Assembly (NCBI RefSeq): GCF_008710285.1
Contig: NZ_VYQF01000001.1
Location: 1,435,501-1,499,500 of the forward strand
Source of the DNA: Ginsengibacter hankyongi
GTDB taxonomy: Bacteria > Bacteroidota > Bacteroidia > Chitinophagales > Chitinophagaceae
Reading direction: 5' to 3'
DNA length: 64,000 nucleotides
Shown here: positions 2,260-5,524 of the stretch, piece after piece
Layout: every line of letters begins with the position of its first letter
Position numbering within the stretch: the stretch's first letter is position 1
Notes under the pieces: generated by a model
What the model saw: the letters and a program-made list of their open reading frames with translations, nothing else
What the model was told of the DNA's origin: nothing
Database searches by the model: none
Translations under genes and position numbers: made by a program

Positions 2260-3309
2260 ATGAAAACTATTATGGTAAAATGCTTAGCACTTGTTCTTTG
2301 TTTAGGCATTATTAGCAATGTTGCAGAAGCACAGGCGAAGAAAAAGAAACCCGTGCATAAAACACGTACTGTAAAAAAACGTACAACGGCTAAGCGGACT
2401 ACCAATTCAAAAACAAAAGCTGATATTAATCCAAGTGCTAAGGTGGATACCGCCGTTGTAATTGCACCTCCAAAAATTGATAGCTTGCCTATTACTTTTG
2501 TGAAACCATCATTGCGCCCGGATGATGCCATAGAACGTAACCTGGTAAAAGACAGGACACCTCTGCCTTATGAATATTTGCGCGAAGACGATGCTGTTTA
2601 CCGTGAAAAAGTATGGCGTGAAATTGACACACGTGAAAAAATGAATTTGCCTTTTCGTTATTCGGCAAATGAAGATAACGGTAACCAACGTTTTATTTCT
2701 ATTTTGTTTAAAGCGATACAGGATGGTCCTGATAATGGTGGTGTAACTGTTTTCAATCCGTCTGATGATAGGTTTACAACTCCTATGACGGTGGCGGAAG
2801 TTGCCAAAATGGTTGCCGGTGAGCCAGTATCTGTTCCCATGTATGACTCGCTGGGAAATGTTACAGGATACAAACAAACAACACCTGAAGTAAACCTGGA
2901 TTCATTTTATAAATTTGAAATTAAGGAAGAAGTAATTTTTGATAAAGAAAGTTCGAGATTATTCTGGAGAATTTTAGGAATTGCTCCATTAAAAAATGTA
3001 ATCACTTCACAGGGTATAAACCTTGGCGAAGCCCCGCTTTTCTGGGTATATTATCCTGACATGAGGCCAATCTTCGCCAAGTATGAAGTATATAACGGAA
3101 AAAATTATGGAGCCCGTATGAGTTGGGAAGAGCTTTTTGAAAGCCGCATGTTTTATGGCCGCATCATTAAGAGTACGCTTAACAATCCGTTTGATGAGAT
3201 GTTATCTCAACAACAAGGATTAAAACAAAATCGAATCTTACAACTGCTTGAAGGCGAAAATATTCAAAACAAAATCTTTGATTACGAACAGAATCTGTGG
3301 AGTTATTAA
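2260..3309 (+). CDS. gldN: GldN, T9SS/gliding periplasmic ring protein
   Basis: 349 aa. Residues 1 to about 25 form a signal peptide ending AEAQA, followed by a very Lys/Thr-rich segment (about 27-55) and then the conserved GldN/PorN domain. GldN forms, with the lipoprotein GldK, the periplasmic ring beneath the outer membrane that the GldLM motor is thought to drive. The protein starts 19 nt after gldM and ends the operon; a strong intrinsic terminator follows at 3331-3362. Length and order match gldKLMN of other gliding or T9SS-bearing Bacteroidota. No defect is seen. Confidence 0.96.
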   Translation: MKTIMVKCLALVLCLGIISNVAEAQAKKKKPVHKTRTVKKRTTAKRTTNSKTKADINPSAKVDTAVVIAPPKIDSLPITFVKPSLRPDDAIERNLVKDRTPLPYEYLREDDAVYREKVWREIDTREKMNLPFRYSANEDNGNQRFISILFKAIQDGPDNGGVTVFNPSDDRFTTPMTVAEVAKMVAGEPVSVPMYDSLGNVTGYKQTTPEVNLDSFYKFEIKEEVIFDKESSRLFWRILGIAPLKNVITSQGINLGEAPLFWVYYPDMRPIFAKYEVYNGKNYGARMSWEELFESRMFYGRIIKSTLNNPFDEMLSQQQGLKQNRILQLLEGENIQNKIFDYEQNLWSY

Positions 3310-3330: not shown

Positions 3331-3362
3331 AAAAGGGGAAGCAGTTATGCTTCCTTTTTTAT
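3331..3362 (+). terminator. Intrinsic terminator after gldN
   Basis: A 7-bp perfect stem GGAAGCA (3337-3343) / TGCTTCC (3348-3354) with loop GTTA, extended by two G-T pairs and an A-run/T-run, followed by TTTTTT at 3355-3360. It lies 21 nt past the gldN stop and should end the gldLMN transcript. Confidence 0.88.
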
Positions 3363-3611
3363 GCCACATAATTGCTACACCAGCAACAATCAACAACTAG
3401 TCCCAAATGAATTTAAAAAAAGGGCGAACCATGATGAAATGAAGCCGATTATTTTTCATAGCAAGGATGGTTGAGAAAAACAATCACTACAAAACCAATT
3501 CGTGAGGTTGAAAGTGATTATAAAAAGTTGCAGTGTTTTTGCTTGCTTTAGCGATTCTTTTAATGTGTATAAAAACATTTCACTCAACCGTTTAATTCAT
3601 TTTTTTCCTCT
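3363..3611. other. Gene-poor stretch between gldN terminator and small-RNA promoter
   Basis: About 250 nt with no convincing coding sequence. A plus-strand open frame at 3502-3732 (76 codons, GTG-type start region) runs through the promoter, the conserved element and its terminator and overlaps the end of uvrC, so I do not call it. A weak inverted pair, AATCACT near 3481 and AGTGATT near 3513, is the only structure I noticed. Confidence 0.5.
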
Positions 3612-3619
3612 TACTTTTA
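3612..3619 (+). promoter_or_regulatory. Putative -7 box of small RNA copy 1
   Basis: TACTTTTA lies exactly 4 nt before the conserved core (GG at 3624). It differs from the Bacteroidetes -7 consensus TAnnTTTG only at the last base. A T-rich stretch near 3591-3593 is in a plausible -33 position but lacks the G. The same box-to-core spacing occurs at the second copy, which is the main reason to believe it. Confidence 0.5.
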
Positions 3620-3623
3620 TAAC

Positions 3624-3682
3624 GGTTTTTCATAGGATATTGGATTTTAAACGGGGCTGGATTTTTATCCGGGCCCTTTTTA
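3624..3682 (+). ncRNA. Candidate small RNA, copy 1 (conserved core plus terminator)
   Basis: The core, from CGGTTTTTCATAGG through ATTGGATTTTAAA (3623-3651), is identical to a minus-strand copy at about 32397-32369. It is followed by a hairpin: outer stem GGGGC (3653-3657) with GCCCT (3673-3677), a T/GG internal loop, inner stem GGAT (3659-3662) / ATCC (3667-3670), a TTTT loop, and a T-run at 3677-3681. Copy 2 has GGGAC/GTCCC and AGAT/ATCT instead, so two base pairs covary. Promoter box and terminator define a predicted transcript of about 59 nt. It ends just before the converging uvrC stop (3689). The function and any known family name are not visible to me. Confidence 0.7.
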
Positions 3683-3688
3683 TTTATA

Positions 3689-5524
3689 CTATTGGTAGGA
3701 TGTTTCACCTACTTCATCCTGAAAAGAATTAAAGTAATTAATAATAATTTCGGCTTTTGAATTGCCAACCACTGTTGCAAGTTGTTCCAGCGAGAGTTCC
3801 CTTATTTTTTTCACTGATCTGAATTTCTTTAACAGAATATCGGCCGTATTTTTTCCGATTCCCTTTATCATCTCCAATTCATTCACAAATGTTCCCCGGC
3901 TGCGTTGGTTGCGGTGAAAATTAATTCCAAAGCGATGAACTTCATCTCTTATTCGTCTTATAAGTTTAAGGCTTTCGCTATCCCACGGCAGTTTTATTGA
4001 TTGCTGATCGCCGGGAAAAAAGATTTCTTCCTCATTTTTTGCAAGGCCAATAATTGTAGTTTTTCCTATTAGATCCAGTTCTGTCAACCCTTCAACAGCT
4101 GCATTTAATTGTCCTTTTCCGCCATCTATAATTATAAGTTGGGGGAACGAGGTGTTTTCATTTTTTAATCTCTTATACCTCCGGCTCACAACTTCCTTCA
4201 TGCTGGCAAAGTCATTTATGCCCGAAACTGTTTTAATATTGAATTTCCGGTATTGACTTTTATCAGGAACACCGTTATTAAAATATACCATTGCCGCTAC
4301 AGGGTAGCTTCCCTGGAAATTAGAGTTATCAAAACATTCAATATGTACAGGTACGTTAGGTAAATGAAGATCCTTTTGCAACTGCAATAACGCCCTATGC
4401 TTTTCTTTATCGGATTTACCCTCAAGCTGAAGCATTTTTTTGCGGTTCAATTCTTCAATAAAATAATTGACGTTTTTTTCAGAAAGCTCTAATAGTTTTT
4501 TCTTGTCGCCCGCTTTAGGAACAGTTAGTGTGATGCCTTCTTCCGGATATTCTAACGCAAATGGGAGAATAATTTCTTTTGCTTCGCTTGTGAAAGTATT
4601 TCGAAGATAGCCAATGGCAAATAGTAAAACTTCCTGGTCAGTTTCTTCAAGCTTTTGCTCGAGCACAATTGTTTTGGTAAGAACAATAGTGCCTTCATTT
4701 ACCATCAAATAATTTACATAGGCAATATCTCCTTCTTTTAAAATTGAGAAAACATCCATAGTCCCTAAATTCTCATTTACTACTTTAGATTTAGCTTTAT
4801 AATTTTGGAGGTGCTCAATTTTTTTTCTTATAAGTTCTGCTTTTTCAAATTCCATATCTGCCGCACATTGCTCCATTTCATTTTTAAAATGATGGATCAC
4901 CGGGTTCAGATTTCCTTTCATAAGATTTTTAAGTCTTGCAAGCCCATCGGCATAATCCTCTGATGATTGTAATCCTTCACACGGACCTTTACAATTTCCC
5001 AGGTGATATTCGAGGCAAACTTTAAATTTACCTTTGCGTATATTCTGCTCCGTTAGGTTTAACTTACAGGTTCGCAATTGCACATTTTGTTTTATAAATA
5101 AAAGCAATTCCCTCACTTTACCAACAGAAGTAAACGGCCCAAGGTATTGAGAGCCATCATTAATTTTTGACCTTGTGAGAAAAACTCTTGGAAAGGGCTC
5201 GCTTTTTATTACAAGATATGGGTAAGACTTGTCATCTTTTAGGTTAATATTAAACTTTGGCTGAAACTGTTTTATTAAAGAATTTTCAAGCAAAAAAGCA
5301 TCCTGTTCGTTGTCAACAATGGTAAATTCTATTCTTGCAATTCTTTTTACAAGCTCATAAGTTTTATAACCGGTAAATGTTTTGGTAAAATAGGAACTGA
5401 CTCGCTTACGAATACTTTTGGCTTTGCCAACGTATATTAATTCGCTTTTATTATCGTAATACTTATAAATTCCAGGCTCAACTGGTAGTGTTTTTAATAT
5501 AGTCTGGAATACTTCCGGTGTCAT
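3689..5524 (-). CDS. uvrC: UvrC, excinuclease ABC subunit C
   Basis: 611 aa, standard length. UvrC makes the two incisions around a lesion in nucleotide excision repair after UvrAB loading. Visible parts: N-terminal GIY-YIG nuclease (GIY at 18-20, YVG at 31-33) for the 3' cut; a cysteine cluster at about 155-183 matching the Fe-S ligand region of the family; a UVR/UvrB-binding helix pair at about 205-240; the RNase H-like nuclease with ECFDNSN and IIDGGKGQ for the 5' cut; and a C-terminal helix-hairpin-helix region (IKGIGKNTADILLKKF). It follows the lipoprotein gene by 36 nt and is probably co-transcribed with it. Uses ATG at 5524. Confidence 0.97.
   Translation of the reverse strand: MTPEVFQTILKTLPVEPGIYKYYDNKSELIYVGKAKSIRKRVSSYFTKTFTGYKTYELVKRIARIEFTIVDNEQDAFLLENSLIKQFQPKFNINLKDDKSYPYLVIKSEPFPRVFLTRSKINDGSQYLGPFTSVGKVRELLLFIKQNVQLRTCKLNLTEQNIRKGKFKVCLEYHLGNCKGPCEGLQSSEDYADGLARLKNLMKGNLNPVIHHFKNEMEQCAADMEFEKAELIRKKIEHLQNYKAKSKVVNENLGTMDVFSILKEGDIAYVNYLMVNEGTIVLTKTIVLEQKLEETDQEVLLFAIGYLRNTFTSEAKEIILPFALEYPEEGITLTVPKAGDKKKLLELSEKNVNYFIEELNRKKMLQLEGKSDKEKHRALLQLQKDLHLPNVPVHIECFDNSNFQGSYPVAAMVYFNNGVPDKSQYRKFNIKTVSGINDFASMKEVVSRRYKRLKNENTSFPQLIIIDGGKGQLNAAVEGLTELDLIGKTTIIGLAKNEEEIFFPGDQQSIKLPWDSESLKLIRRIRDEVHRFGINFHRNQRSRGTFVNELEMIKGIGKNTADILLKKFRSVKKIRELSLEQLATVVGNSKAEIIINYFNSFQDEVGETSYQ

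Follow-up and report, generated by a model that had tools for sequence, protein, structure and literature searches.

The short repeated sequence between gldN and uvrC of Ginsengibacter hankyongi raises the question of whether it is the gene of a small RNA (sRNA) and, if so, to which family it belongs. In the window, that is, the whole stretch of 64,000 nucleotides analysed, the element is a unit of ~60 nt that comprises a Bacteroidota -7 box at constant spacing, a 5' block (GGUUUUUCAUAGGAUAUUGGAUU), a brief linker and a terminator hairpin. The features of its two copies and of the genes next to copy 1 are as follows.

2260-3309, plus strand: gldN, upstream of copy 1 (Pfam GldN, E 1.2e-67)
3612-3619, plus strand: -7 promoter box TACTTTTA of copy 1 (sequence; box-spacing count in 149 copies)
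3623-3687, plus strand: copy 1 of the sRNA, match to covariance model R2 (84.4 bits, E 8.3e-17 within the window)
About 3624-3681, plus strand: predicted transcript of copy 1 (from sequence)
3623-3651, plus strand: 29-nt core, or conserved 5' block, of copy 1 (identical to copy 2)
3653-3676, plus strand: terminator stem-loop of copy 1 (terminator scan, fold, covariation)
3677-3681, plus strand: terminator T run of copy 1 (sequence; terminator scan)
3689-5524, minus strand: uvrC, converging on copy 1 (Pfam UvrC domains)
32408-32401, minus strand: -7 promoter box TATCTTCG of copy 2 (sequence)
32397-32331, minus strand: copy 2 of the sRNA, match to R2 (77.8 bits, E 2.4e-15)
32397-32369, minus strand: core of copy 2 (identical to that of copy 1)
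32366-32342, minus strand: stem-loop of copy 2 (sequence)
32341-32336, minus strand: T run of copy 2 (sequence)

Anatomy of the element

A preliminary description of this DNA had put the identity of the two cores at 28-29 nt, and all 29 nt are indeed identical. A 20-mer of the core occurs twice in the window; with up to three mismatches allowed, the chance mean is 0.01, and two occurrences were reached in 0 of 100 shuffles. Model R2, searched over the window, found copies 1 and 2 and no further match below E 0.3. Copy 2 is flanked by recQ and the gene of a HerA-like ATPase. Copy 1, as had been proposed, lies past the terminator of gldN, a palindromic one at 3337-3354 that the scan assigned to the minus strand, and the element's own terminator is on the plus strand. 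Besides this terminator, the fold of copy 1 contains a weak helix of 4 pairs inside the 5' block (3623-3651), which we propose as a putative seed and protein-binding region.

The reported spacing of exactly 4 nt is that from the box to the first G; to the C of CGG it is 3 nt. The -7 box does keep a fixed distance: of 149 distinct exact-core copies, 94 have, 3 nt ahead of the core, a box that agrees with TAnnTTTG in 5 or more of its 6 letters, and any other gap accounts for at most 7. Since sigma-A boxes of Flavobacterium span -12 to -5, according to PMC9723704, the predicted +1 is G3624.

Copies in the genome and in relatives

When up to three mismatches were allowed, the core 20-mer gave 12 matches in the genome and its reversed control gave none. 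Covariance model R1, built from 11 of these 12, yields 13 genome copies, namely, the 11 core matches, a copy of a second type (C1:1662399) and one that has diverged (C31:16439), more than the two per genome that the preliminary description had set as the mark to exceed. The twelfth core match, L012, has no hairpin and is outside the 13. No ORF of at least 150 aa overlaps any of the 13, and a pair on C12 stands in tandem, 177 bases apart. Model R2 omits the doubtful L061, L071, L081 and L082.

Relatives carry further copies, as the preliminary description had foreseen. First, R1 matched 19 of 20 genomes of the same genus (our own counted), 13 of 16 from other genera of the family and 2 of 23 from the remaining order. 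Second, R2 matched 14 of 15 genomes of the window's family in a sample of the phylum and 19 of 22 in a sample of the order; elsewhere it matched 4 of 377 and 5 of 127, respectively, a scarcity outside the family to be read as a lower bound because the scan filters are strict. The four matches outside the family in the phylum sample proved, when read, to be terminators without the core. Copy number in the other matching family genomes ranges from 1 to 10. Third, the exact core GTTTTTCATAGGATATTNGATT occurs in at least 119 stretches of named genomes, and the 80 stretches listed for it hold 83 copies, 81 of them with hairpin and T run under the rule applied here. Nine genera checked among the matches listed are all Chitinophagaceae; many other titles read just Bacteroidetes or Sphingobacteriales bacterium.

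In a set of 84 distinct copies found with R1 and chosen for diversity, 53 have the exact 21-nt core GGTTTTTCATAGGATATTGGA and 13 a second type, CAGTTTTCATAGGGTACGGATTA. A second subfamily, CAGTTTTCATAGGGTACGGATTAAAA plus hairpin, is represented by L044 1000-1062 (G000:C1:1662399-1662461) and by 12 copies in relatives, usually one per genome in those read. A third seed variant, GGTTTTTCATAGGATATGGTTAA, occurs at L056, L057, L058, L059 and L060, in two genera of the family.

The position of copy 1 is retained across genera: 34 distinct copies occupy the gldN-uvrC site, with both neighbours seen in 25 and one in 9. The constancy of the core across these 34 arises in part because the core was used to find them. 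The paired replacements of G-C by A-U noted earlier between the stems of copies 1 and 2 are two in number if a G is allowed to bulge from the 3' arm of each copy; when the stems are aligned without a bulge, one replacement is clear and the other falls at an indel. Beyond this pair of copies, the view of a structured RNA with a covarying hairpin is upheld in all three sets: stem covariation was 0.384 against 0.192 after shuffling for 11 copies of the own genome and 0.546 against 0.225 for 61 copies, and in the 34 orthologous gldN-uvrC copies two-sided changes affected 4 pairs, compared with 0.9 in shuffles (reached in 0 of 500). A count of pair types in these 34 gave no excess over shuffles (330 of 500). 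In our judgement, this is a real, conserved multi-copy family of predicted sRNA genes, undescribed within the literature searched: the open-access papers of PMC gave no account of this sRNA family beyond Bacteroidaceae.

Relation to FopS

The preliminary description knew of no family with this core. This stands insofar as Rfam at its cut-off returned a tRNA and nothing else, and does not stand insofar as the 5' block aligns with that of FopS (RF04319) from Bacteroides. When E values as high as 10 were admitted over a stretch of 161 bases, Rfam gave 13 sub-threshold matches. Among them RF04319 scored 13.8 bits against a gathering cut-off of 56 (E 2.9 and 6.2) and aligned in register throughout, starting at base 1. 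Both ar15 (21.4 bits, E 0.013) and MicC had better E values, yet were rejected because they are proteobacterial families with an unlike 5' block; FopS is preferred because of its phylum and the 5' register, not its score. RF04319 did not match the own genome, and 0 of 198 genomes of the phylum exceeded its cut-off. The lone sub-threshold match in these 198, L013 1501-1569, lies opposite the start of a gene reading MKNTEYKDMFDFGA.

In B. thetaiotaomicron, FopS comprises 14 RNAs, ligands of the RRM protein RbpB, which act at the start codon to keep the mRNAs of SusC transporters from being translated (PMC11697453). Several traits are alike in the two families: a similar 5' block, GUUUUUCAURG..UAUUNGAUUU, with which the transcript opens (a predicted start here), a -7 box of the sigma-ABfr type closely upstream, found here at gap 3 in the proportion given above, one Rho-independent terminator hairpin after a single-stranded 5' stretch, a length of about 60-70 nt, and a paralogue number of 12 to 15 per Bacteroides genome compared with 13 here. 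In contrast to FopS, the Chitinophagaceae block has a 2-nt insertion (GGA), no AAGG after it, a shorter linker and another stem; it belongs to another bacterial family and scores far under the Rfam cut-off. GibS of B. thetaiotaomicron also has a conserved single-stranded 5' end that pairs around start codons, but it is about 145 nt long, a single gene, and has a second seed and another promoter motif (PMC7366714). LhrC1-7 and Qrr are also paralogous short sRNAs with a common single-stranded motif, although from other phyla and with other motifs; both are named in PMC11697453.

In an alignment of the two families, the cores read GUUUUUCAURG-(0 or 2 nt)-UAUUNGAUUU; the 5' blocks read GTTTTTCATAG--TATTAGATTT versus GTTTTTCATAGGATATTGGATTT, an anchored likeness reached in 0 of 5000 shuffles. 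Beyond TTTTTCAT the likeness is modest, since 73 of 5000 shuffles match it anchored and 465 of 5000 locally. Run on bacterial FopS loci, R2 hit 9 of 10 at the correct place, weakly (E 0.01 to 1.2), and missed L244; the hairpinless L238 (R2 E 0.0046) scores as well as these loci. The shared pattern GTTTTTCATRGN{0,3}TATTNGATT occurs in 20 of 392 genomes of the phylum, with a control of 0. In the window's family it is found in 12 of 15 genomes, always with the 2-nt insertion, and it is insertion-free in 4 of 4 genomes of one family and 1 of 1 of another, there in 4 to 9 copies with hairpin. Three single matches to it (L238-L240) have no hairpin. With a joint model, multiple copies were detected in two further families, along with ten single matches that are weak; the hairpin is absent from its matches L471-L475. 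On a single contig, G391:C112, of a genome of family f60, this model has six weaker matches.

Could sRNAs of the same build have originated independently, UUUUUCAU having arisen twice as the complement of the frequent start AUGAAAAA? This is possible but doubtful. The bases beyond TTTTTCAT are merely modestly alike, the joint model has no strong match in the sampled families between the two clades, and at viral loci 14 of 37 hairpinless matches open a frame of at least 50 aa, compared with 22 of 102 for any ATGAAAAAC. However, a start codon leaves the UAUUNGAUUU part unexplained, promoter register, length, copy number and terminator agree too, and phage copies with intermediate cores exist (see below). 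Descent from a common ancestor with FopS is thus likely although unproven, because the whole likeness is clear while that without TTTTTCAT is modest and R2 responds weakly. Most likely, the present family is a sister branch of FopS, which we keep out of RF04319.

Proposed mechanism and targets

Alongside the gene anatomy, copy number, synteny, stem covariation and FopS likeness evident in the DNA, we consider it probable that the copies form a paralogous family of trans-acting sRNAs related to FopS, each with its own promoter and terminator, whose 5' block obstructs the starts of envelope mRNAs. Transcription, target pairing, RRM binding and physiological role would then be as follows. Each copy would be transcribed from its own promoter of the sigma-ABfr type, with a transcript that begins at the GG of GGUUUUUCAUAGG or beside it and is ended after about 60 nt by its own intrinsic terminator. 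The invariant 5' block would be the working part: UUUUUCAU, which is complementary to AUGAAAAA, would pair with AUGAAAAA starts of mRNAs for secreted or outer-membrane proteins, helped by the following bases, and ribosome entry would be blocked. An RRM protein would probably handle the same 5' block.

By duplex energy, starts of SusC genes (30 of 40 genes, six starts having been picked by hand) pair slightly better with the seed than 476 other starts do, with p 0.012 and 5 of 100 shuffled seeds equal, and so do 146 secreted-like starts (p 0.008; 2 of 100 shuffled seeds equal). Over 628 gene starts there is no clear excess, as 4 to 13 of 60 shuffled seeds do equally well and mid-gene positions pair better; nor are long complementary sites enriched in the genome, with about 50 besides the copies versus 80 in the reversed control. 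Start-codon pairing by the seed is thus a best guess by analogy, weakly supported here. Among 20 sites read (L380-L399), one, L383 (G000:C12:627623-627639), coincides with the start, AAAATCCTATGAAAAAA, of an envelope gene of the CarboxypepD_reg-like type, with 13 contiguous bases complementary to the seed.

The genome encodes two RRM_1 proteins, a trait shared with FopS carriers, RbpB-type binding being putative here; a search of the genome for Hfq gave no match. The 5' block contains UAGGAUA, and an RbpB motif was reportedly described by Adams in 2021. Titration of an RRM protein, that is, a sponge or protein-binding RNA whose block is kept with no mRNA pairing, would fit a block conserved over a greater length than a short seed requires, the weak evidence for targets, and UAGGAUA itself, GUAGGAUA being cited as an RbpB probe in PMC12119571. 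We nevertheless hold this to be unlikely: a 7-of-8 match to the motif arises in 2 percent of shuffles, FopS, a proven RbpB ligand, matches 5 of 8, and FopS represses via pairing (PMC11697453). UAGGAUA was set aside as a weak candidate for an RRM site.

Alternatives to an sRNA gene

A bidirectional terminator between converging genes, with the 5' block as a leftover, would suit a hairpin that lies 12 bases beyond the uvrC stop and folds on the opposite strand too, and weak antisense matches to the model were found. This explanation is very improbable, as conservation, in keeping with what had been predicted, is not restricted to the hairpin: many contexts show both the 5' block and the fixed -7 box, neither of which a terminator requires. 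Less credible still is that the element is a mobile or REP-like repeat, or that the 76-aa ORF at 3502-3732 encodes a small protein. The copies, though dispersed and some in tandem, retain a position across genera with unlike flanks, and the ORF, though open in the window, meets upstream stops in most of 20 orthologous copies in the window frame, while 1-nt linker changes shift the frame past the 5' block.

Wider meaning and phage copies

FopS has been described to date from Bacteroidaceae and one phage. If the present reading is true, relatives at fixed sites in Chitinophagaceae would make start-codon control by sRNAs old in Bacteroidota and independent of gut life, and FopS-like control of nutrient-uptake proteins more widespread than described. 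The family is a comparison set for which seed bases matter, it may show the role of an RRM protein in a bacterium without detected Hfq, and it serves as a warning that a whole branch escapes the RF04319 model. Some host surface proteins are phage receptors. We may speculate, with little confidence, on a Bacteroidota-wide 'anti-start-codon' RNA, the common heritage of Chitinophagaceae and FopS carriers, that would work with RRM proteins rather than Hfq and set the amount of outer-membrane transporters, and whose phage copies (one on 236 kb) would tune host surface proteins.

In IMG/VR, 77 stretches match the shared pattern and 43 have hairpin and T run under the same rule as above; for insertions of zero, one, two and three bases, these are 40 of 58, 1 of 4, 2 of 9 and 0 of 6, respectively. 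First, L177 (5814-5876), on a 236-kb contig whose genes include those for a baseplate wedge and a ribonucleotide reductase, is a copy of the Chitinophagaceae type (75.1 bits). Second, L197 (5612-5676), on a 56-kb contig with a terminase gene, has a core intermediate between the two clades (58.0 bits), and L166 is a further phage copy with an intermediate core. Pattern matches without a terminator are not taken as sRNAs because a start region of Bacteroidota, when complemented, resembles the core; the hairpinless core matches L164, L172, L198, L204, L219, L238 and L240 are gene starts read backwards (MKN...).
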